Shown here in pieces: positions 3,689 to 53,235 of a stretch of DNA of 64,000 nt. The DNA comes from Prevotella corporis DSM 18810 = JCM 8529. GTDB taxonomy: Bacteria > Bacteroidota > Bacteroidia > Bacteroidales > Bacteroidaceae. The DNA is taken from NCBI RefSeq assembly GCF_000430525.1, contig NZ_AUME01000007.1:1-64000 (forward strand). The letters are read 5' to 3'. Below the pieces are notes generated by a model. It was not told the origin of the DNA. It did no database searches and saw only the letters and a list, made by a program, of their open reading frames with translations. The position numbers and the translations under genes were made by a program. Numbering within the stretch: the stretch's first letter is position 1; every line of letters begins with the position of its first letter.

Positions 3689-3742
3689 CACATTTTTACA
3701 ATAATGTTGACCTATATCAATTATTTATTATACATTTGTCAA

Positions 3743-3901: not shown

Positions 3902-6900
3902 ATGATGAAGCAGGTAAAAAGCAAAATTCCCGTCAGAATGCTGACCCTTCTACTTGGGCTCATTCTGTCAATCAGCGCCTTTGCACAGTCAACTGTCAAT
4001 GGCCATGTTAAAGATGCTACCGGCGAACCTGTGATCGGTGCCTCCATTCTAATCAATGGAACCACTGATGGCACAGTGACCGACCTTGACGGTAATTTCG
4101 TTCTCAACGTACAGCCAGGTGCCACACTGACTATTTCCTACATCGGATATCAGAAGCAGCAGGTAACGGCCGTTGACGGTATGGTAGTAACCCTTCAGGA
4201 AGACGCTGCACAGCAGCTGAACGAAGTGGTAGTAATCGGTTATGGAGCCGTCAAGAAGAGCGATCTCACTGGTTCCGTACTCGCTATGAAACCAGACGGA
4301 AAGAACAAGGGTGTGATTGTGAACCCACAGGACATGCTGGCCGGAAAGGCAGCAGGTGTGAGCGTCATTTCAAATGACGGTACTCCAGGTGGTGGTGCAC
4401 AAATCCGCATTCGCGGCGGCGCATCTCTGAACGCATCAAACGACCCTCTTATCGTGATCGATGGTCTGGCCATTGACAACAATGGTGTAAAGGGCGTTTC
4501 CAACATCCTCTCAACAATCAACCCTCAGGACATTGAAAGCTTCAACGTCTTGAAGGACGCATCGGCAACAGCCATCTATGGTTCACGCGGTTCGAATGGT
4601 GTCATCATCATTACGACAAAGAAAGGTCGCCGTGGTCTCAACATTTCTTATGCAGGAAGTGTTACCATGAGCATGAAGAAAAAGACAATCGACGTGATGG
4701 ATGGCAATCAGTATCGTGACTTTATCAAAAACATCTTCGGCGAAAACAGCGACCAATACAGAATGTTGGGTACAGCCAATACCAACTGGCAAGATGAGAT
4801 TTATCGCACGGCATGGAGCCACGACCATAACGTTACTGTCTCTGGCTCAACACAACTGGGCGAGGCCAACAGCCTGCCTTACCGAGTTTCAGTTGGCTAC
4901 ACAGACCAGCAGGGTATCTTAAAGACATCTGATTTCAAACGCTACACAGCTGCTGTGAACTTGAGTCCTTCGTTCTTCAACGATCATCTGAACATGAACT
5001 TGAACGCAAAGGGCATGTATGCCAAATCTCAATTCGCTGATGGTGGTGCGATTGGCGCTGCTGTTTGGATGGATCCGACACAGGCAATCAACGCATTCAC
5101 ATCGCCTTTCCACACGGCTATGCCAGGAATCGATCAGACTCTGAGCAACTTCGGTGGTTACTTCCAGTGGCCAACCGACGGTTCTGCACTGAACGACAAG
5201 ACGTGGAAATACACCAAATTCAATGAAGCCACAGCCAATCCTCTCTCACTATTGAATCTCATGGACGACCATGCGAACAGCCGCCAGTTCATCGGAAGTG
5301 CTGACTTCGACTACAAAGTTCATGGTTTCGAGGACCTACGCCTCCACCTCACATTGGGTGCCGACATAGCAAAGGGTAAGCAAACGACTAACAAACTTCC
5401 AGCTTATCCAGGCTCTATCTACTACGGATCATACGGTTCTGAAGAGATTTTCAAGCGCAACCTGTCATTGAGTGCTTACGCTCAGTATTTCAAAGACTTC
5501 AACGAAAAGCACCACTTTGATATCATGGCCGGCTATGAATACCAAAGTTTCTATCAGAACAAGAACAACGACTACGTAGGCTATTATGCTTCAACCAACA
5601 ATGATGCGTCATTGGCTGGAACAGCTTGTCCACACACTCCTTATTACTTTGCAACCGACCACTATCTGGTGTCTTTCTTCGGCCGTGCAAACTACACGCT
5701 GATGGATCGCTACATGATAACAGCTACTGTACGTGACGACGGTTCTTCACGCTTCAAGAATCACTGGGCAATCTTCCCTTCATTCGCCTTCGCATGGAAA
5801 ATCAAGGATGAAAACAAGTTCAGAGATATCAAGTGGCTTTCTGACTTGAAGCTCCGTCTTGGCTGGGGTATGACTGGTCAGCAGGAAGGAGACGTTGCAG
5901 ACTATGGATGGGTTGCTACCTACGAAAAGAGCACTGGTACCAACGGCTACTATCCACTCATCGATATGAACGGCGACGGTAAGATTACAGCTGAAGACGG
6001 TATTCTCTATCGTCCGGCTAACCGCACTCCAGACTTGAAGTGGGAAACAACCACGACTTACAACGTAGGTCTCGACTTCGGATTGTGGAATCAGCGCCTC
6101 TCAGGAACAGTGGATTGGTACTTCCGCAAGACTACTGACTTATTGAATTACGCACCATACGCAGCTATGGGCTTGTTCAAGAACCAAGCATGGCAGAACA
6201 TCGGCTCGATGAACAACACCGGTGTTGAAGTTCAGCTCGACTGGAAAGCTGTTCAGGCAAAGGACTTCTACTGGACTATCGGCTATAACTTCACTTACAA
6301 CTACAACAAGATTACCGATTTGAGCGGTGTTACAACTGGTGGAATGCCCGTTCAGACAGGCGACGATGCTGGAGGAATTTTCAACAAAGTCTTGGCGCAC
6401 CAAGTTGGATACGCAGCCAACTCTTTCTACGTTTACCAACAAGTTTACGACAAGAATGGAAAGCCAATCGAAAATCAGGTGGTTGACCGCAATGGCGATG
6501 GCCAGATCAACTCTGCCGACCGCTATATCTACAAGACAGCAGCTCCTCCTGTTACAATGGGCTTGACTTCTCGCATGGATTACAAGAACTTCGACTTCGG
6601 TTTCACACTCAGAGCAAGCATAGGCAACTACGTATTCAACAACATTGAATCGACATCTGCCAACATGAGCCCAGGCTCTATCTATGCTCAGAATGCTTAT
6701 CTCGCCAACCGCCCAATCATGTCATTAGAAAAGAACTGGCAGACAAACGAGAATACTGCACAGCAATCAGACCTCTATGTCCACAATGCCAGCTTCTTGA
6801 AGGTTGACAACATCACATTGGGTTACAGCTTTACCGACCTTTTCAAGTCTGATTCATGGAAGGGAATTGGCGGACGTATCTACGCTACAGCAGCTAACGT

Positions 6901-23953: not shown

Positions 23954-24724
23954 TTATTTCCTGACAATAAACCACAAGTGTTTCAGTATGGTTGTGAAAA
24001 TACCGTAATGACGGCACATGACGCGAAAGCGCTCAATGAGCGATGCACGGTGGTGGATAGTTGTCTGTCCCTCCTGCATGTAATAGGCTACCACGGCATG
24101 AATATTTCGCAGCAGGAGTCCTTGTTCTTGTCCAGCTTTCATGACCCGAATACACCAGTCCACGTCAGCGGAATACCGGAAATGTGTATCGTAAGGAATG
24201 CCACGGGCAATGTCTAAACGTGCATAAAAAGCTTGATGGCACACAAGCATACCGTCCTTGAACGATTCCCATGTGAGGTCCTCTGGAGGCTGAAGATGGC
24301 GATGAAAGAGGAAATTACCATTCTCATCGACGATATCAGTGTCGCCATAGAGCACCGCTGGGCGTTCCTCGCCGTCGCCAGCCTCAGCAGCCAACGCCAC
24401 CAACTCCAACGTATCGGCAGCGGGGAAACAGTCACCGGCATTCAGGAATACGATGTAATCGCCCGTAGCACGCTGAAGGCCCTTGTTCATGGCATCATAC
24501 AACCCATCATCGGGCTCACTGGAAATCCTTATCTTGTGCCCATTCTCGGCCTCATCGGACGCAATCTTGTAAGTCTGGGCAATTTTCACGGTGCTGTCCT
24601 TCGAAGCCCCATCAACAATCAGGTGCTCCACATGAGGAAAATCCTGCATCATGACACTGTCCAAAGTGGATTGCAATACTTCGGCAGCATTATAGGTAAT
24701 CGTTACGACTGAAATTGTAATCAT
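23954..24724 (-). CDS. Family 2 glycosyltransferase (WcaE-like)
   Basis: The 256-residue protein has a GT-A fold N terminus ITISVVTITYNAAEVLQSTL, the acidic nucleotide-binding segment LIVDGASKDSTV and FLNAGDCF (the D.D-like metal site). The later block DVDWCIRVMKAG resembles the acceptor-side ED motif. Such enzymes add a sugar from a nucleotide donor to cell-surface polysaccharide. Its start overlaps the end of the upstream GT4 gene by 4 bp, so the two are translationally coupled. Confidence 0.85.
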   Translation of the reverse strand: MITISVVTITYNAAEVLQSTLDSVMMQDFPHVEHLIVDGASKDSTVKIAQTYKIASDEAENGHKIRISSEPDDGLYDAMNKGLQRATGDYIVFLNAGDCFPAADTLELVALAAEAGDGEERPAVLYGDTDIVDENGNFLFHRHLQPPEDLTWESFKDGMLVCHQAFYARLDIARGIPYDTHFRYSADVDWCIRVMKAGQEQGLLLRNIHAVVAYYMQEGQTTIHHRASLIERFRVMCRHYGIFTTILKHLWFIVRK

Positions 24725-25995
24725 ATCTGGTAGTTATTCATAGCCAAAGCCTGGTTGTAAATCTCTATATACCGCATGGCCACATTGTGCCGGGAATAAG
24801 AGCGCTGCACCTTTCGCACAGCTGCGACAGAGATTGCCTCATAGTCTGCTTCGTCGAGCACCCAGCGGATTCCACGGGCAAGGTCGTCAGAACTTCGAGC
24901 CGAAGCCACATAGCCATTGGTATGGTGGTCTATCATCTCAGGGATGCCACCCACACGGAAGCCAACACATGGCACACCGCATGCCATTGCCTCCATGATG
25001 GTGTTTGGGAGATTCTCCGAGAGTGACGGTAGAACGAATGTATCCACAGCATTGTAGATATTGACTATCTGCGCCTCGTCACTGACATAGCCCAAAGGAA
25101 ACATCTGCATGCGGAATTGCCCATCAAAATCATCGGATTGTCCGCCGAGAATGACAAGTGCGGTATTGTCGCACATCTCTGGATAGGTATCTGTCAGTTG
25201 GTTGCACGCCTCTATCAGATAGCTCATACCCTTGTTGACATTCGTAGCTCGTTGAGCAACAAAGAGTATCAACCGCTTCCCTTCTGGAAAGCCACACAGT
25301 TGCCGTGCCAGTCTTTTATCATTGGGGTTGAACATTTGTGTGTTGATGGGATTGGGGATTGCTGTGACAACCTGATTCTTCAGCAGACCGCTCGCCTTTG
25401 CCTCATTGGCAAGCCATCGGCTGCAAGCGACGAATGAGATATTGGAAGCGTTGTAGAGTTTTTCTTTCTTCTTCCATACCTGATAGGAAAGATCGTGCGA
25501 CGAGCCACCATTGGGCAGATACTTGCAATGACCACAGTGAGTCTTGAAGTTGTTGCACCCCAGCGACAAATGACAGATGGCTGACGCAGGCCATAAGTCG
25601 TGCATGGTCCACACTACTGGCTTGCCAGTTCTTAATATCTTCCTGATGTTTGAAAGGGAGAGCATGCCTTGGTTTATCCATGAGAGGTGGATGACATCGG
25701 CTTCCTTGAACTCCCTAAGCGACGTAATATCTGTTCCAGAATTGGCGATGTCTAAGGCGAAAAGGTGCTTTCGAGAGAAACGCAACTTGAAAAAAACGCA
25801 GAAGCGCTCCCACAGGAAATGCCACTTGGTACCCAAGCCTTTTCGCAAACTGACGACTGTAATGTCATCGGTAAGTTTGTCGCGGACCAGCATCTTTGCC
25901 TTTATCCCATTATGGTTGAGTGCGTCCTTCAAACGGCTGGCTGCAACAGCTGCCCCACCAGTCTTTTCGCTTGTATTAACAATCAGTACTCGCAT
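24721..25995 (-). CDS. Family 4 glycosyltransferase
   Basis: The 424-residue GT-B protein has an N-terminal ILIV-type strand with TGGAAVAASRLKDAL. The C-terminal GT4 donor-binding region is FVLPSLSENLPNTIMEAMAC, then GVPCVGFRVGGIPEMI with the conserved E-x7-E pattern. The middle part (TMHDLWPASAICHL) with a Cys-rich stretch after it (CNNFKTHCGHCKYLP) is typical of a GT4 subgroup in Bacteroidota capsule or O-antigen loci. It forms a two-gene operon with the GT2 gene at 23954. Donor and acceptor unknown. Confidence 0.87.
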   Translation of the reverse strand: MRVLIVNTSEKTGGAAVAASRLKDALNHNGIKAKMLVRDKLTDDITVVSLRKGLGTKWHFLWERFCVFFKLRFSRKHLFALDIANSGTDITSLREFKEADVIHLSWINQGMLSLSNIRKILRTGKPVVWTMHDLWPASAICHLSLGCNNFKTHCGHCKYLPNGGSSHDLSYQVWKKKEKLYNASNISFVACSRWLANEAKASGLLKNQVVTAIPNPINTQMFNPNDKRLARQLCGFPEGKRLILFVAQRATNVNKGMSYLIEACNQLTDTYPEMCDNTALVILGGQSDDFDGQFRMQMFPLGYVSDEAQIVNIYNAVDTFVLPSLSENLPNTIMEAMACGVPCVGFRVGGIPEMIDHHTNGYVASARSSDDLARGIRWVLDEADYEAISVAAVRKVQRSYSRHNVAMRYIEIYNQALAMNNYQI

Positions 25996-26156: not shown

Positions 26157-26188
26157 TTTGGTTTTACTTCAAAACCACAGTAACTTTG
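26157..26188 (+). promoter_or_regulatory. Strong orphan promoter facing a gene-free interval
   Basis: TTTG (26157-26160) and TAACTTTG (26181-26188) are separated by exactly 20 bp, one of the best -33/-7 matches in the window. The next gene downstream is on the opposite strand, so it would drive a non-coding RNA. Confidence 0.55.
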
Positions 26189-26194
26189 CAACGT

Positions 26195-26377
26195 CAAAAG
26201 GTTAATAGATTGTTTAGGTTAGTAGTAATAGATTTAGGTTTTTAGTTATTTATTAAAGGTGAAGTTTAACAGATTGTTTAAAGGATGACAAAGGAAACCG
26301 TGAGGTTCCCTTCTAATTAGAAACATTTTCGTTAAACATAAAAAAAACGCTGAAGCTCGCAGAGAGTTTCAGCGTTT
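26195..26377 (+). ncRNA. Candidate small non-coding RNA
   Basis: The interval is bounded by a full promoter (26157-26188) and a hairpin terminator (26345-26377) and has no ORF on the plus strand with a plausible product. It holds a 14-15 nt direct repeat with core AGATTGTTTA (26202-26216 and 26266-26280) and a short hairpin GGAAACC-gtga-GGTTCC (26293-26309). The predicted transcript is about 180 nt. No known RNA family is recognised; existence is inferred from the signals alone. Confidence 0.35.
26345..26377. terminator. Bidirectional terminator after ispF
   Basis: AAACGCTGAA (26345-26354) and TTCAGCGTTT (26368-26377) form a 10-bp stem. On the minus strand it continues into at least seven T, giving a strong terminator for the ispF/porV/porU operon. 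On the plus strand it would end the candidate small RNA. Confidence 0.8.
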
Positions 26378-26398
26378 GCTTTATTTCACGGTTTGTAT

Positions 26399-26893
26399 TC
26401 AATACTTGCTTATCAAACAAACGGCATAAGCAGCCATACCTTCTTCGCGCCCCACAAATCCCATGCGCTCTGAAGTTGTTGCCTTAATGGAGATATCATC
26501 CTCATCACAGCCGATAATTTCAGCCATGCAGACTTTCATAGCGGGAATATGAGGATTGATTTTCGGTTTTTCGGCACACACGGTCGCATCTATGTTGCCC
26601 ACCTTATAACCGTTGGTTTCCAATAATTCAACCGTCTTTCGCAGAATCACTTTAGAATCCATGCCGAGAGTCTCCCCTGCAGTATCGGGAAAGTGATAAC
26701 CAATATCACGCAAGTTGGCCGCTCCCAGCAGAGCATCACAGATTGCATGAATCAAGACATCTGCATCGCTATGGCCCAAAAGACCCAGGGAATGATCGAT
26801 TTTGACTCCGCCCAGATAAAGATCACGGCCTTCTACCAATTTATGGACATCATATCCCATGCCCACACGAATGCGGAGAAAAGAATTTGACAT
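26399..26893 (-). CDS. ispF: 2-C-methyl-D-erythritol 2,4-cyclodiphosphate synthase
   Basis: The 164-residue protein has the metal-binding GMGYDVHKL motif (Asp and His), the LGLLGHSDADVLIHAICDAL signature and SERMGFVGREEGMAA near the C terminus. It cyclises CDP-ME 2-phosphate to MEcPP in the isoprenoid pathway. It lies 20 bp after porV and is the last gene of the operon. The ispF-porV-porU arrangement is also found in Porphyromonas gingivalis. Confidence 0.95.
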   Translation of the reverse strand: MSNSFLRIRVGMGYDVHKLVEGRDLYLGGVKIDHSLGLLGHSDADVLIHAICDALLGAANLRDIGYHFPDTAGETLGMDSKVILRKTVELLETNGYKVGNIDATVCAEKPKINPHIPAMKVCMAEIIGCDEDDISIKATTSERMGFVGREEGMAAYAVCLISKY

Positions 26894-26913: not shown

Positions 26914-28098
26914 TTATCTTCTGTTGAACAAGTCCTTAATTCCGTCCATATCAAATGCCAGCGAGAAACGCAAGGTCTGGTCGAGTGGATTGCTCTTTGC
27001 TGTTGCAATAACGTAGCCAGCATCAAGAGAGAACACACTCATGCGGAAGCCAGCACCAACGGTGAAATACTTGCGGTTACCCTTGTTCTGACTTTCATTG
27101 TGATAACCGGCACGAAGCGAGAATTTGTCGTTATACACATACTCTGCACCAACGCTCCATTGGATTTCCTGAAGCTCTTCCGACACACCATTGGGGGCAT
27201 CGCTGAAGCTCTTGAATATACCAGAAATGGATGAAATATCGTAATAATCTCTTTGCAAACGGTCCTGATAATCAGTCTCTGACTCATTGTTCTCAATATC
27301 GCGCTTGGGATAAGTGGGAACCAAAAGTTTATTAGCATCAGCAGAGATTGTGAAACGATTGAACTCATCAATAGGTATCATCAAGGCAGCACCCAGACGC
27401 AAGTTGGTAGGAATGAACTCTGAACGACTGTCACCGCCAAAAGTAATCTTCGAACCAATATTTGAGATATTCAATCCCAAACCTAACTGACACTCACGGC
27501 TGCCCAAGTTGATGTAATTCTGGTAATAAGCCGAAATATCCGCTGCAAAGGCAGATCCAGGAGTCGTCTCTTCTGTGAAATCGTAGGTAAGATCCGAATA
27601 AATCCAACGTACGGCGGCACCCAGAGAGAACCTTTCGCTCAACATCAAGGAGTAGGCCACATCCACCGACATCTCATAGGGCTTGATAGTCATATCGGCA
27701 GAACCGTCCTGACTGCTGCTCGTCTGCACCTCTCCCAGCGAGAAGTAACGGAGAGAGCCTGACACAGCACTGTAATCGCCTATTCGATAATATCCCGCCA
27801 TATAGGCTAAGTCCATATCGCTCACCAGCTGACGAAGCCATGGAGTATAGTTGAGCGATACGCCGGCACGAGAAATCGTAAAGGGATATTTAGCCGGATT
27901 CCAGTATTGTGAATAAACATCAGGATCTGTCGCAACGCCCACATCTCCCATACCAGCAGCACGGGCATCAGGAGCTATCATCTGCGATGTTACAGCATGA
28001 TTGACTGGATTAAAAATATCCTTCTTGTCCTGTGCCGAAGCGGTAATGGCAAAAAGGGTAAGCAAGAACATGCTCACTATTCTAAAAGACTTATTCAT
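26914..28098 (-). CDS. porV: Type IX secretion system outer-membrane protein PorV (LptO)
   Basis: ATG 28098 is preferred over an upstream TTG at 28110; it gives a 394-residue protein with a signal ending near ASAQ. The conserved start of the mature protein, PVNHAVTSQMIAPDARAAGM followed by GDVGVATDPDVYSQYWNPAK, is diagnostic for PorV. The rest is a FadL-like barrel with strands such as FSLGAAVRWIYSDLTYDF. PorV shuttles cargo from the SprA translocon to the PorU attachment complex. It is next to porU, its partner. Confidence 0.93.
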   Translation of the reverse strand: MNKSFRIVSMFLLTLFAITASAQDKKDIFNPVNHAVTSQMIAPDARAAGMGDVGVATDPDVYSQYWNPAKYPFTISRAGVSLNYTPWLRQLVSDMDLAYMAGYYRIGDYSAVSGSLRYFSLGEVQTSSSQDGSADMTIKPYEMSVDVAYSLMLSERFSLGAAVRWIYSDLTYDFTEETTPGSAFAADISAYYQNYINLGSRECQLGLGLNISNIGSKITFGGDSRSEFIPTNLRLGAALMIPIDEFNRFTISADANKLLVPTYPKRDIENNESETDYQDRLQRDYYDISSISGIFKSFSDAPNGVSEELQEIQWSVGAEYVYNDKFSLRAGYHNESQNKGNRKYFTVGAGFRMSVFSLDAGYVIATAKSNPLDQTLRFSLAFDMDGIKDLFNRR

Positions 28099-28183
28099 TC
28101 TATTGTTCAATTTTTCTGATTCTTTATCAACTCCCAGTGCGCCGGTTTAGGCGGAACACCGATGTGAAAACGCACAAGTAGGA

Positions 28184-31100
28184 CTATTTATTGTTTATGA
28201 CAATCAGTTTCTTTGCCTTCGACTCCTTCACCGCCCCGCCATTACTTAGGCGGACACGATAAAGATAAACACCTGTTTGCAAGCGTGCGCCGCCTTTCAC
28301 AACCAAGTCCCAATCTACCGTGATGGCATTCCCTGTAGAAGTTCCACTGGCAGAATGGCTCCAAAGGAGACGACCTGTAGTATCAAATACATCTATCTCA
28401 ACACCCACATCCGAACCGGTATAATTGTGGGTGACAATAAATGTGGTATGCGTCGTAGCGGGATTGTTGGTGCAGCTGATTTCCTCAATATCGGGGGCCA
28501 GACCCTTAACAACGTTAAAGTCGAGGACAGCCGTTGACGAGTTGTTCAGGATGTCCCACACACGGAACCTCAGCTGATGCCGGCCTTCTGGCAGCTCTGG
28601 AATACTGAAGTAGGTCTTTCCCTTCGTATAACTACCGAAATCAAATGTGAAATTGTCATTCAGATTATAAGTGCGGGCCATCTCACCGTCGATAACAAGC
28701 TGGATATCATGTCCCACACCGTTGCCTGTAGCATTGATACCATTTCTGTCTGTCACTTCCGCAACAAAGTATGGTGTGCTGTTCACATTGCCACCATTGA
28801 CAAACGAAGGCTTGTTAAGGTAACAATAGATAGACGGTCCTATAGAATCATTGCTTACTTGTTCAGAACCGTTGACGTTGAACCTCTCCTCTGATCCATT
28901 GGCCATGAGCGTGTGGTCATTGTTAACCGCATAGATATTGATCAATCCTGCGCCATCGGCGTAGTTAAGGTCACGCGGAACAGCAAAGGTAAAGCTGAAA
29001 TCGCCATTTTTCACACTGTCTGAACCATTGTAAAGAATCTTCTGACGATCATAATAGACAAAGGCAGAGTTGGATGTTTCCTCTTGCTTCTTACAGGTAA
29101 TCAGCTCTCTTGTATCCCGTACTGTTGCCGTCATCAAGCCATTGAAATCACTGACCTTATCATTTCCGCGTGCTACATGACCTTTCACCTTTACTATCGC
29201 CCCACCTTTAAGAACTATTTGACTGCCTCCACCCACAGGAATTCCGTTAATGGAATCGATAACAGTAATTAGAGCCGGAAGATTCAGCGAGAGTGCGGGG
29301 TCGCCCAACAAAGAATATTGCAACTTATTGCGTGTCTTGTCCTGTCCAGTGTTTATCATTTCCATCTTCGCCAACCGCTGCGCCTCTCCCAAAGTGGTAG
29401 GTTTTCCGTCAGTGAAACTCAGCACATGCTTCAAGAAAGCCGTATTAATGGATTTATTATAGTTGGCAAATACTGTGCGTGTCGTGCCCCAAAAAGCCAC
29501 TGAACCACCCTTTTTATTCAACATGGCCTCCTCTCCCAACGTGGCAGTAGTACCATCAAACGGCATGATATCGCAACTTGCTGTAATCCATAATGGGAGA
29601 TTCTCATTGGTGAAATTGGTGAAATCGGTGATTCTCAATACCGCCTCATGCGAAATTTGTATCTCTGATCCATGCCCGGCATAATCCATGATAAGCGCAC
29701 CCTGTGCCTGTTGCTGCTTGATGAGTGCCGAAACATCAGGGTATGTGTTACCTGTCGATGACGTAACACGCTTGTAGGCATCCCACATCACTTTCTTCAC
29801 CAAATATCCTGGATAAGAACTCATGATGGCTTCGGCTGTCTGATTCACGTCATGCATGTGCAGATTGTCGTTACCATCGTCCCCCATGAACATTATGACA
29901 TTCTGCCACGCACCAGCGTTCTTGTTGGTTGCGTAGTTGATAGTCTTATCCACCATTGTTCGAGCATCAGCAGCATTCGAAACAGGGAATCGCCCTACCC
30001 CAATGTCTTCTTTGTCGCGGCTAAGCAAGTCGGCACCTTCGCCGTCGTCCATCAGTGTGAACCACCCATCGTTGACATAGCAGTCGGTTGCGCTGAATGA
30101 GTTTTCACTCTCGTAAGCCAGTAGATAATCATTTGGATTGAGCTGGCGACAGTCGGGGGTCAGCATACGGTTGTCCCACACACAATCGCCGAACAAGAGG
30201 AGCGACTTCGGCAATTCCTTCTCTGTAGATGCTCTGTCGTACATCATCTTCATGTAACGGCGATATGCCATTGCATCTGGCGTACCGCTTGAGAACTCAT
30301 TGTAAAGTTCGTCAGCAGGCACAATGCGGACAGATATCGAATCGTGCTGTTCGTGGAATGCCGCCAGTCGTCGGGCCTCCTGCAACCATTTCTGACTCGT
30401 TGGGATGATAATCACCATATCAACATTGTCATGTGCATGGAGGTCTTGGTTCGTAATGTTGTGCACATACTCAGGAACGGCAAACGAACCACTACCCAAA
30501 CGAGGCGCAGGTCTTGGAGTGTCGTACGTCATTGACAGATAATCGAGACGTGCAGGACCACCAGAGACAGTTGAAATCCTTACAGAATCGACATTCTGAA
30601 GGCCTCGCACATCGAAAACACGCTCGGTCTCATAGCCAAAATCGTAGGAGTCGCTCGGCTTTATCTGAATTTTCCCGAGCGAAATACCATTCACTTCCAC
30701 ATCCACTACCGTTGTATTCTTACCCGTCGTCACACCTATCGCCAGTTTTCCGTTGCTGGCCTTGGCTGCGTTTGTCAAAGTATAGATGTGTGATTTACCC
30801 ACGGCTATCGGCGTATTCTCAAAGAGATTCCGTCCACCATGATACCAACTGAAGTTATCTACCTCATGAAGGGTGTGATAATCATCAGCCATAGGATAGA
30901 CACTGGCCAGAAATTCGGCAGAATCAACGGTCAATGGTGCACTCTCATTTTCAGTAAGAAAGTAATATCCGTAATCGGAATAGGGGTTTCGGGTTCGCTT
31001 CGTGGCGGTGTTACTGTCCCAACTGACTGGGCCACGACCATAAAAGAGCCTTTTCCCACCGACAAGACAAGTCGGAATCTCTCTTAAATCGTCAGTAGCT

Positions 31101-31738
31101 TGTATATGAGCAGCTGTCAGTCGCTCATTCTGCATATTGCCACCATAGCCATAAATCTTCACTTTGCTCAAGTCGGAGAAGCCGGCCTGTTTGGTGACAG
31201 CTGCCGTTAGGTTATAGATGCCATTTGCCGGCACACGTATTTTCGCCCACTTGCCAGAAGCCAGCACCGAATGTTCAGCATATTTTGGCATGCCAGCAGG
31301 GACTTTGGCAGCCCTCAAGCCATGAGTTTTCTTATTATAGCTGACTGGCTTTGACGTCAGTGCTATCATGAAACTAACCAAAAACTGCTTTTTCCCTCCC
31401 CGTTCAACAATCGGAACAAGCGAGAACTCCAATACTCCTCTCTTCCGCTCCACCACAATCTGCTGGTAAATTTCAGGCAATGCCGGCGGCACTTCAGCTG
31501 TCAGGGCATGATAAAGAGCCACATCGCGCTTGTTCATATCAATGAACTCCGGATACCTGATTTCCAATTGATAGGTGGAGTCAGCATAATTTTCACCTAT
31601 GGGAATGGAATAAGTGAAGCGTGGCAGAACGGAGTCAATGGTTACATCCTCAACCGTCAAGTTGAAGAAGCGTTGTTTTTGAGCGTAAGCAGAAAAACAA
31701 AGCATGAACAGAAATAAGCCTAATATCGATCGTTTCAT
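28184..31738 (-). CDS. porU: Type IX secretion system sortase/protease PorU (peptidase C25 family)
   Basis: The 1184-residue protein has a Sec signal ending at AYAQ. The gingipain-like C25 domain carries the catalytic His in MDYAGHGSEIQIS (about residue 688) and Cys in WITASCDIMPFDG (about 720). The C-terminal domain, with VEIDVFDTTGRLLWSH and GVYLYRVRLSNGG, resembles a T9SS sorting domain that is retained in PorU. It removes C-terminal signals from T9SS cargo and attaches the proteins to lipopolysaccharide at the surface. Both catalytic residues are present. It lies between the FAH-like gene and porV. Confidence 0.93.
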   Translation of the reverse strand: MKRSILGLFLFMLCFSAYAQKQRFFNLTVEDVTIDSVLPRFTYSIPIGENYADSTYQLEIRYPEFIDMNKRDVALYHALTAEVPPALPEIYQQIVVERKRGVLEFSLVPIVERGGKKQFLVSFMIALTSKPVSYNKKTHGLRAAKVPAGMPKYAEHSVLASGKWAKIRVPANGIYNLTAAVTKQAGFSDLSKVKIYGYGGNMQNERLTAAHIQATDDLREIPTCLVGGKRLFYGRGPVSWDSNTATKRTRNPYSDYGYYFLTENESAPLTVDSAEFLASVYPMADDYHTLHEVDNFSWYHGGRNLFENTPIAVGKSHIYTLTNAAKASNGKLAIGVTTGKNTTVVDVEVNGISLGKIQIKPSDSYDFGYETERVFDVRGLQNVDSVRISTVSGGPARLDYLSMTYDTPRPAPRLGSGSFAVPEYVHNITNQDLHAHDNVDMVIIIPTSQKWLQEARRLAAFHEQHDSISVRIVPADELYNEFSSGTPDAMAYRRYMKMMYDRASTEKELPKSLLLFGDCVWDNRMLTPDCRQLNPNDYLLAYESENSFSATDCYVNDGWFTLMDDGEGADLLSRDKEDIGVGRFPVSNAADARTMVDKTINYATNKNAGAWQNVIMFMGDDGNDNLHMHDVNQTAEAIMSSYPGYLVKKVMWDAYKRVTSSTGNTYPDVSALIKQQQAQGALIMDYAGHGSEIQISHEAVLRITDFTNFTNENLPLWITASCDIMPFDGTTATLGEEAMLNKKGGSVAFWGTTRTVFANYNKSINTAFLKHVLSFTDGKPTTLGEAQRLAKMEMINTGQDKTRNKLQYSLLGDPALSLNLPALITVIDSINGIPVGGGSQIVLKGGAIVKVKGHVARGNDKVSDFNGLMTATVRDTRELITCKKQEETSNSAFVYYDRQKILYNGSDSVKNGDFSFTFAVPRDLNYADGAGLINIYAVNNDHTLMANGSEERFNVNGSEQVSNDSIGPSIYCYLNKPSFVNGGNVNSTPYFVAEVTDRNGINATGNGVGHDIQLVIDGEMARTYNLNDNFTFDFGSYTKGKTYFSIPELPEGRHQLRFRVWDILNNSSTAVLDFNVVKGLAPDIEEISCTNNPATTHTTFIVTHNYTGSDVGVEIDVFDTTGRLLWSHSASGTSTGNAITVDWDLVVKGGARLQTGVYLYRVRLSNGGAVKESKAKKLIVINNK

Positions 31739-35956: not shown

Positions 35957-36307
35957 TCTAAAAAATTAATAATTTTACTACTAAAAAACGTTTTCTAATT
36001 TTGCCCGTGTGATTCTCTAACCGTGCGGCTCGGCCAAAAGCCACTACTATTAACACACATCGTGCAGAGGGCTCTAAGTACACCCTCGAAAATAATCGGT
36101 CTGCAAAATTACTCATTTTATATACCAGAATCACTATCGTCAGGGATTAATTCCGTTCATTTATTATTATTTAACACGAATCACATTTATTAACAACCAA
36201 TCGCTGACATAACATTATTATATGTGTAGCCATTCAGAACGCATCTTACCGACACCCAGCGTCACGATTTTGCCAACCATGAATCGGAAGGGCACCAACT
36301 GATGTGC
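35957..36307 (-). promoter_or_regulatory. Upstream region of rplM with candidate promoter and leader hairpins
   Basis: A minus-strand TAATTTTG (36104-36111) is a plausible -7 element, giving a leader of about 140 nt. Within it GAGGG/CCCTC (36067-36085 region) and GGCT/AGCC (about 36027-36041) can pair. No gene is visible on either strand between rplM and the repeat array at 36308. The rest is unremarkable. Confidence 0.35.
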
Positions 36308-36619: not shown

Positions 36620-36671
36620 CATCTGTGAATGAACCGCATAAAGCATTATGAAATAATAAAAGATGTCACGA

Positions 36672-36815
36672 ACTATGCGGTTAAAGGGAATCCGGTGTGA
36701 ATCCGGAACAGTACCTGCTGCTGTAAGTCCTAATTATTATCGCTGCACAAAACCATTGGTTGCACCAACAACTGAGAAGGAGCAGAGAGATAGGGATAAG
36801 TCAGAATACCTGTTC
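36672..36815 (+). ncRNA. Cobalamin (vitamin B12) riboswitch
   Basis: The core of the cobalamin aptamer is clear: GGTTAAAGGGAATCCGGTGT (from 36679), then GAATCCGGAACAGTACCTGC and TGCTGTAAGTCC, with the 3' part AACTGAGAAGGAGCAG and GATAGGGATAAGTCAG (to about 36805). These are the conserved AAGGGAA, CCGGTG..AATCCGG and CTGTAAG boxes. It precedes a BtuB-like receptor gene. When cobalamin is abundant the RNA should reduce expression of the operon. The expression platform downstream (36816-36990) has no obvious terminator, so control may be at translation. Confidence 0.93.
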
Positions 36816-36990
36816 ACCAATCAAGAAAGCTACCGCGGGTTTCGGTTAGAGCAACAGTAAATAGTATTTTCACCAACAATTTCTGTTTCTTTATTTGAAT
36901 GCTTGTAGTACGCTTTGATGCTGCCACAACTAAAAGCCGAGCTCATAATTTTCGGAATTATATTTTTAATCGCAATCAATAAAAACATAT

Positions 36991-52074: not shown

Positions 52075-53235
52075 TTACCTCCCAGACATCAATTCCTGTG
52101 CCACTTTGCGTGATTCGGCATCGGTCTGCAGATAAACGTCAAGGTCAGGACTCTTGTCGAAGGACACTTTTGACATCGTTTTCTCGATGATTTCGCCCAT
52201 TTCGAGGAATGAGCACGCCCCGTTCCTGAAACCCTCGTTAACTATTTCGTTAGCCGCATTCAATATACACGGCATGTTTCCGCCCTTAGAGATGGCCTCA
52301 TAAGCCATGGCCAGACAGCGGAATTTTTCAGTATCAGGCTCAAAGAATTCCAACGGCTGGCGGAACAGGTCCAGACGGTCACCATTCAACGACAAACGCT
52401 TTGGGAACGAAAAGGCATACTGTATCGGCAGACGCATGTCGGGTACGCCCAACTGCGCCTTCACACCGCCATCGGCAAACTGTACCGCACTGTGGACAAT
52501 CGACTGTGGATGTATCAACACCTGAATCTTCTCTGCCGGCACGCCGAAGAGCCATTTCGCTTCTATCACCTCAAAGCCTTTGTTCATTAATGATGCCGAA
52601 TCGATGGTGATTTTCGCACCCATGTCCCACGTCGGATGCCTCAATGCATCGGCTGCGGTCACTGTCTGGAGCTGTTCGCTGGAGAAAAGGCGGAACGGAC
52701 CTCCCGAACAGGTGAGCAATATCTTCTCTATCTCGTTCTCATCCTCCCCCACAAGACTCTGGAAAATGGCACTATGCTCACTATCTACCGGTAATATCGG
52801 AGCATGATAGTCAAGCGCCAACTTGCAGATAAGTTCTCCAGCGACCACGAGCGTTTCCTTATTTGCCAGGCAAATCTTCTTTCTTGCCTTGATAGCATTG
52901 ATGGTTGGCTCCAAACCGGAGAACCCTACCATTGCCGCAAGTACCATATTGATGGGCTCTGCCTCAACTATCTGCTTCAGAGCGTCACTTCCGGCATAAA
53001 CTTTTATATCGGGTTGGTCCTCCAACTCCTTGGTAAGGGCTTCATAATGGTCGGCATTGGCAATCACAACTGCCGCCGGACGGAACTTGCGAGCTTGTGC
53101 GGCAAGTTCTCTCCAATGATTGTTGGCCGTCAGTGCATAAACCTCGTATAGGTCGGAGTGCTGCTCTATCACATCAAGAGCTTGCGTTCCGATACTTCCC
53201 GTTGAGCCAAGAATACATATTTGTTGCTTCATCAT
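52075..53235 (-). CDS. dxr: 1-deoxy-D-xylulose 5-phosphate reductoisomerase
   Basis: I start at ATG 53235 (MMKQQICILGSTGSIGTQAL) rather than the TTG at 53253, because the conserved Dxr sequence begins there. The 386-residue protein has the NADPH motif GSTGSIG, KKICLANKETLVVAGELI, PVDSEHSAIFQ (metal Asp and Glu) and LNAANEIVNEGF. It catalyses the committed step of the MEP pathway and is the fosmidomycin target. Confidence 0.95.
   Translation of the reverse strand: MMKQQICILGSTGSIGTQALDVIEQHSDLYEVYALTANNHWRELAAQARKFRPAAVVIANADHYEALTKELEDQPDIKVYAGSDALKQIVEAEPINMVLAAMVGFSGLEPTINAIKARKKICLANKETLVVAGELICKLALDYHAPILPVDSEHSAIFQSLVGEDENEIEKILLTCSGGPFRLFSSEQLQTVTAADALRHPTWDMGAKITIDSASLMNKGFEVIEAKWLFGVPAEKIQVLIHPQSIVHSAVQFADGGVKAQLGVPDMRLPIQYAFSFPKRLSLNGDRLDLFRQPLEFFEPDTEKFRCLAMAYEAISKGGNMPCILNAANEIVNEGFRNGACSFLEMGEIIEKTMSKVSFDKSPDLDVYLQTDAESRKVAQELMSGR

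Follow-up and report, generated by a model that had tools for sequence, protein, structure and literature searches.

Described small RNAs (sRNAs) of several kinds provide points of comparison for the locus presented here. FopS (RF04319) consists of paralogous Bacteroides sRNAs of 65–70 nt, which are multicopy and have an unpaired 5′ segment, an intrinsic terminator and a sigma-ABfr-type promoter. The FopS sRNAs of B. thetaiotaomicron act as repressors of susC-type mRNAs and are counteracted by RbpB, an RRM protein that binds FopS 5′ regions; the transcriptional regulator of FopS is given there as unknown (PMC11697453). A preference of RbpB for GUAGGAUA is mentioned in another paper (PMC12119571, citing Adams 2021). 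GibS (RF04182), 145 nt in length, is described as having a 5′ unpaired seed region, middle hairpins and a terminator (PMC7366714). BTnc231 (RF04180) has a CGUGAG-capped hairpin together with a terminator, and a literature search turned up no function for it. In enterobacteria, the sRNA FnrS is driven by an FNR-type site.

The window analysed here, a 64,000-nucleotide stretch of Prevotella corporis, contains a predicted sRNA gene between a divergent glycosyltransferase gene and a convergent operon (Table 1). The predicted sRNA resembles FopS in being multicopy, in its unpaired 5′ segment and intrinsic terminator, and in its promoter, which is also of the sigma-ABfr type with the same TTTG-N4-G spacing. 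In addition, AGTAATAGATTTAGGTT in the second half of its 5′ segment resembles by eye the FopS R1′ seed AGTATTAGATTTAAGGTT. However, the window sRNA is about 185 nt long and has an additional hairpin and repeats, and the FopS model gives no match at the site even at E 10 (required cut-off 56 bits). Two true FopS copies are found elsewhere in the genome, both above the Rfam cut-off (C52, 78.4 bits; C39, 72.3 bits). The overall layout is also that of GibS, whereas the GibS promoter type (PM2) differs, and membership is rejected at 21 bits vs a cut-off of 115. BTnc231 shares the capped hairpin and terminator and matches weakly over its full length, but the score at the window site is 19.8 bits vs a cut-off of 80.4, and its model rises above the cut-off in 0 of 60 genomes. 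FnrS differs in phylum, sequence and site position. No family of Rfam 15 reaches its cut-off at the sRNA site, and the literature search turned up no published description of a Prevotella sRNA family.

Table 1. Predicted parts of the sRNA unit and neighbouring genes, in window coordinates
Feature	Position	Strand	Basis or remark
GT4 glycosyltransferase gene	24721..25995	-	divergent neighbour; context
CRP/FNR-like palindromic box TTGACATACATCAA	26107..26120	.	centre -79.5 from inferred +1
-33 element TTTG	26157..26160	+	sequence
-7 element TAACTTTG (TAnnTTTG)	26181..26188	+	sequence
Predicted small RNA gene, ~185 nt	26193..26384 (3′ end about 26377-26384)	+	alignment of copies; fold z -4.97; covariance model 196.7 bits (window copy itself included in the model); +1 at 26193 inferred from the FopS spacing TTTG-N4-G
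Near-invariant 5′ segment, ~58 nt	26193..26250	+	alignment, fold
AGATTGTTTA copy 1	26207..26216	+	sequence
AGATTGTTTA copy 2	26271..26280	+	sequence; AGATTG recurs in relatives
Covarying hairpin, GTGA (GNRA) loop, CCGTGAGG core	26291..26312	+	covariation
Conserved box GTTAAACATA	26331..26340	+	alignment; may pair with upstream GTTTAAC
Intrinsic terminator hairpin, probably bidirectional	26345..26377	+	terminator scan, covariation
ispF	26399..26893	-	convergent neighbour; TIGR00151, 207 bits; context
porV (T9SS)	26914..28110	-	NF033710, 522 bits; context, in line with ispF
porU (T9SS sortase)	28184..31738	-	NF033707, 1015 bits; context, in line with ispF

The original prediction described a full -33/-7 promoter facing a gene-free interval with two repeat copies, a short hairpin and a hairpin terminator, opposite an operon for T9SS components and IspF. 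All of these parts are present. The promoter elements are separated by a 20-nt spacer, no open reading frame of at least 60 aa lies wholly within the interval, the AGATTGTTTA copies are spaced by exactly 64 bp, the terminator-like hairpin has 14 pairs, and the convergent genes encode IspF, PorV and PorU. Simple scans for such elements give numbers close to chance (4 promoter-like sites vs 2.8 in shuffles, and 2 terminator-like sites vs 1.2), and the case therefore rests on comparisons with relatives. The plus-strand T tail of the terminator is weak (GCTTTATTTC) and the stronger T run belongs to the minus strand (A8 at 26340–26347), which makes it likely that this hairpin terminates the ispF operon as well.

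Homologues of the interval, whose conservation in related strains had been proposed as a check, were found by DNA search in 53 of 100 genomes. These are its own genome and 52 of the 59 further genomes from the genus, whereas none of 40 genomes from other families of the order has a homologue. At least 117 stretches of named genomes have the exact 21-base core; among the 80 core matches listed, 78 have a title with the name Prevotella, Prevotellaceae, Segatella, Hallella, Hoylesella or Leyella. The remaining two are labelled ‘Bacteroidales bacterium’ and ‘uncultured bacterium’. When the family's 151 genomes were searched with the covariance model, 15 scored above 90 bits, every one of them from the window's genus, and eight from two other genera scored 30–42 bits. 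Among 148 sampled genomes of the order, four besides its own match the model weakly. Some of the weak matches, which show AGGTT/AGATT repeats and a CGTGAG hairpin, may be distant kin.

The genome itself has four copies: that of the window, one at C14 near 21117 and, on the minus strand, one each at C6 near 14007 and C1 near 23405. A total of 82 named copies were found, of which 72 were assessed after removal of 8 at a contig edge and 2 starting off the stretch; the terminator is present in 66 and a strict CGTGAG-type hairpin in 59 of the 72. Other subfamilies have the 5′ segment and hairpin in common and differ in the downstream part. In relatives, AGATTG is again found within the variable middle, with 16 occurrences vs 1.3 expected in 30 sequences and 16 vs 3.0 in 10 sequences. 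Our verdict from these comparisons is that the window unit represents what appears to be a new multicopy Prevotella sRNA family.

A mobile element was considered and rejected. Phage records gave no blastn match, and the plasmid collection gave two records, both of which are large Prevotella replicons. The core is present in two viral contigs. In the viral collection, contig L175 carries a family copy near 330–361, ~3.6 kb from a tyrosine-integrase-like open reading frame; it is possibly the bacterial flank of an integrated element.

Folding and covariation were assessed with the window sequence and with an alignment of 28 copies of one subfamily, that of the window; these were hand-picked from loci with a complete element, and truncated loci and those of other subfamilies were left out. 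The sRNA folded alone has a minimum free energy z of -4.97, with 0 of 200 shuffles as low, and the 5′ segment is largely unpaired in the centroid fold. This segment (alignment columns 1–70) has a mean column identity of 0.91–1.0 per block. Changes on both sides of a pair are seen in 5 of 8 pairs of the short hairpin and in 11 of 14 pairs of the terminator (16 of 22 together), with 94.2% and 97.2% of cells paired, respectively. When a tentative third helix is included, the whole structure has 93.8% of cells paired vs 82.9% in shuffled alignments, a value reached by 0 of 500 shuffles. This long-range helix, GTTTAAC/GTTAAAC, is not claimed; 86.1% of its cells are paired, but only 1 of 7 pairs changes on both sides. 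G-U mismatches far exceed A-C mismatches in both hairpins (28 vs 6 in the short hairpin and 50 vs 2 in the terminator), which indicates that the plus strand is the one folded as RNA. The data support selection on the two hairpins for RNA pairing, apparently on that strand.

The upstream sequence adds a feature that was absent from the original prediction. CRP/FNR proteins have a TTGAT-N4-ATCAA-like palindrome as consensus, and a palindrome of this type was found at a fixed promoter distance, the window site being off the strict form by one base. It resembles a site at which a regulator that senses oxygen or stress would bind. In a non-redundant set of 98 copies, the 200-nt region upstream contains the pattern TTGAYN4RTCAA in 89 cases, compared with 4.6 in shuffles. 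Rounded box centres are at -80 (33 regions), -79 (53) and -78 (3), with two others elsewhere. The 98 regions are what was left, after removal of similar ones, of 118 copies that have both a TAnnTTTG box and 200 bases of upstream sequence; the -7 element is the entry condition, and copies without it are absent from the count. As for the -33 element, 93 of these 98 regions have a TTG at a distance of 18–21 nt from the -7 box, and 36 have TTTG. A second palindrome, TGTGTNCGNNNACA, occurs in 36 of the 98 regions vs 2.5 expected, mostly at about -98 or at about -23 within the promoter, and is absent from the window copy.

There are 30 box sites in the genome vs 8 for a reversed control pattern, and in 9 of the 60 site-orientations the box is accompanied by TAnnTTTG at the sRNA spacing, where chance is 0.46% each. 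Of these nine, five belong to the sRNAs, namely to all four family copies and to the C52 FopS copy, whose box is at -79.5. The remaining four comprise both sites of a divergent pair on C4, a site on C7 and another that is probably intragenic. At the C4 locus (near 53200; L248, 1200–1800), two adjacent boxes are seen with divergent, correctly spaced promoters, each before an open reading frame of less than 50 aa. Another TTGAYN4RTCAA box, TTGACCTATATCAA, is found at window positions 3707–3720 upstream of the SusC gene at 3992, with a promoter spacing that does not follow the sRNA rule.

Composites of box and promoter are present in 40 of 40 genomes of the genus, with 311 sites in total and none for the control. 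Thirty-one sites at 30 loci were inspected by eye. Five are long-family sRNAs (L303, L304, L314, L318, L320) and four are FopS (L306, L313, L323, L327). At least seven others are closely followed by a gene-like open reading frame of at least 60 aa (L301, L302, L308, L315, L316, L319 and L329 on the minus strand), and at the remaining sites such frames are short, doubtful or absent. At least seven sites thus appear to act as promoters of protein genes, so that use of the box is not confined to sRNAs. In several Prevotella genomes, the composite promoters at L301, L302, L315, L319 and L329 precede genes for proteins of ~120–130 aa with signal-like starts (MKRLFLTVV..., MKKIM...).

That the box is common to Bacteroides FopS was considered and is mostly not the case, since 6 of 39 non-redundant FopS upstream regions (40 before removal of redundancy) carry it; by our reading, the box is present in 5 of the 12 regions that belong to the window's genus but in only 1 of the 27 that belong to other genera. 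By eye, many FopS copies outside Prevotella (L278–L299) have in place of the box a common TGTTATAA-like stretch near -60, which may be the site of another regulator.

Very likely, the predicted box regulates the sRNA. As to the protein that would bind it, the genome has three proteins with cNMP-binding domains. The C29 protein L238 has the sequence ...TPETLSRVRA... near its end, and the ETLSR motif, which we take to be typical of TTGA-reading FNR proteins and which recalls the FNR recognition helix, makes L238 a candidate regulator. L240, a protein with a cNMP-binding domain, adjoins a gene that looks like one for an iron-centre repair protein.

The explanation that best fits these findings, with a probability of roughly 60%, is an independent, regulated and trans-acting sRNA gene that is the window's member of a multicopy Prevotella family. 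A CRP/FNR-family protein would bind the box upstream of the sRNA and would activate the window sRNA along with its paralogues in the genome and one of the FopS copies. The unpaired 5′ segment would then pair with mRNAs, as those of GibS and FopS do, and the sRNA might be bound by the genome's single RRM protein, which is RbpB-like. For base-pairing as the mechanism the odds are about even. The CRP/FNR-like box, the multicopy family and the link to FopS go beyond the original prediction; the fixed box offers a directly testable regulator for the whole sRNA set, and it bears on the question of the FopS regulator, at least for the Prevotella copies.

Target prediction was underpowered, because the FopS seed used as positive control was also not enriched. 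Within this limit, duplex energies of the sRNA against 395 start regions of its own genome are no better than those of coding controls (z below -3: 3 vs 3), and complements of the seed number 68 in 871 start regions, below the shuffled mean of 100.7. The gene porU ranked 4 of 395 (z -2.98) and was dropped as a target, being no better than controls. Only three SusC proteins are over the family cut-off in the genome.

Perhaps the sRNA acts mainly as a decoy for protein, sequestering the RbpB-like RRM protein via repeated single-stranded motifs as CsrB/RsmZ do with CsrA, and thereby shifting FopS control. One RRM protein is encoded in the genome. The binding of FopS 5′ regions by RbpB of B. thetaiotaomicron, which opposes FopS (PMC11697453), and the preference of RbpB for GUAGGAUA (PMC12119571, citing Adams 2021) fit such a role, as does the missing complementarity signal in the underpowered start-region test. 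UAG is present 7 times in the 5′ segment vs 4.6 expected, with 20 of 500 shuffles as high, and some paralogues likewise support the decoy idea. However, UAG is not enriched in the variable middles (20 vs 26.3 and 34 vs 29.6), and binding of the window sRNA by the RRM protein is putative. We regard the decoy role as unlikely. Also unlikely is a genus-wide network in which one CRP/FNR-type regulator, via the -79.5/-80 box, would switch on long sRNAs, FopS copies and small proteins; it would use RNA to couple redox or nitrosative signalling to the control of surface glycans and secretion, with the long sRNAs as decoys for, or competitors of, the RRM protein that set FopS activity.

That the RNA acts in cis, or as antisense, on the divergent glycosyltransferase gene is suggested by the arrangement of the two genes and by the 38 of 72 assessed named copies that have a glycosyltransferase homologue no more than 1.5 kb away. 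Yet the other 34 have no such neighbour within that distance, some because the fetched stretch ends, and the sRNA runs away from the glycosyltransferase gene and terminates before any open reading frame. The position of the box points in the same direction: in 49 glycosyltransferase-adjacent copies it is 79.5–80.5 nt (sd 0.5) from the sRNA start, as against 79.5–515.5 nt (sd 82) from the glycosyltransferase start codon, and therefore goes with the sRNA promoter. A cis or antisense role is improbable.

An RNA of dual function might encode a peptide of 10–20 aa, which in some copies reads MTKxxVRLxFxxKRIFS. Two alignment columns that are in frame hold an ATG in 8 and 9 copies, respectively, so that up to 17 of 28 copies have one, and the stop box AGTTAA is in phase in 13 of 28, but the phase is broken in 7 and the stop box absent in 8, no start column exceeds 9 of 28, and the window version is cut to 11 aa. 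Bias by codon position is only slight (0.78, 0.80, 0.71), and the hairpin explains the conserved letters, which leaves a peptide very improbable.

The absence of any gene, with a chance promoter before a bidirectional terminator of the ispF operon, would suit the near-chance scans and the minus-strand T run, but is barely credible given genus-wide conservation, hairpin covariation, the G-U strand bias, paralogues away from ispF and the upstream box at a fixed distance. Rather, promoter, 5′ segment, hairpin and terminator are conserved as one unit, which recurs at unrelated loci with the same box; together with the covarying hairpins and the plus-strand G-U excess, this bears out the earlier view of an independent small RNA gene, which, as a transcription unit read from sequence tests, is very probably real. 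Two other RNA elements of the window are above their Rfam cut-offs, a cobalamin riboswitch at 36644–36828 on the plus strand (71 bits) and an L13-Bacteroidia ribosomal leader at 36011–36087 on the minus strand (65.3 bits).
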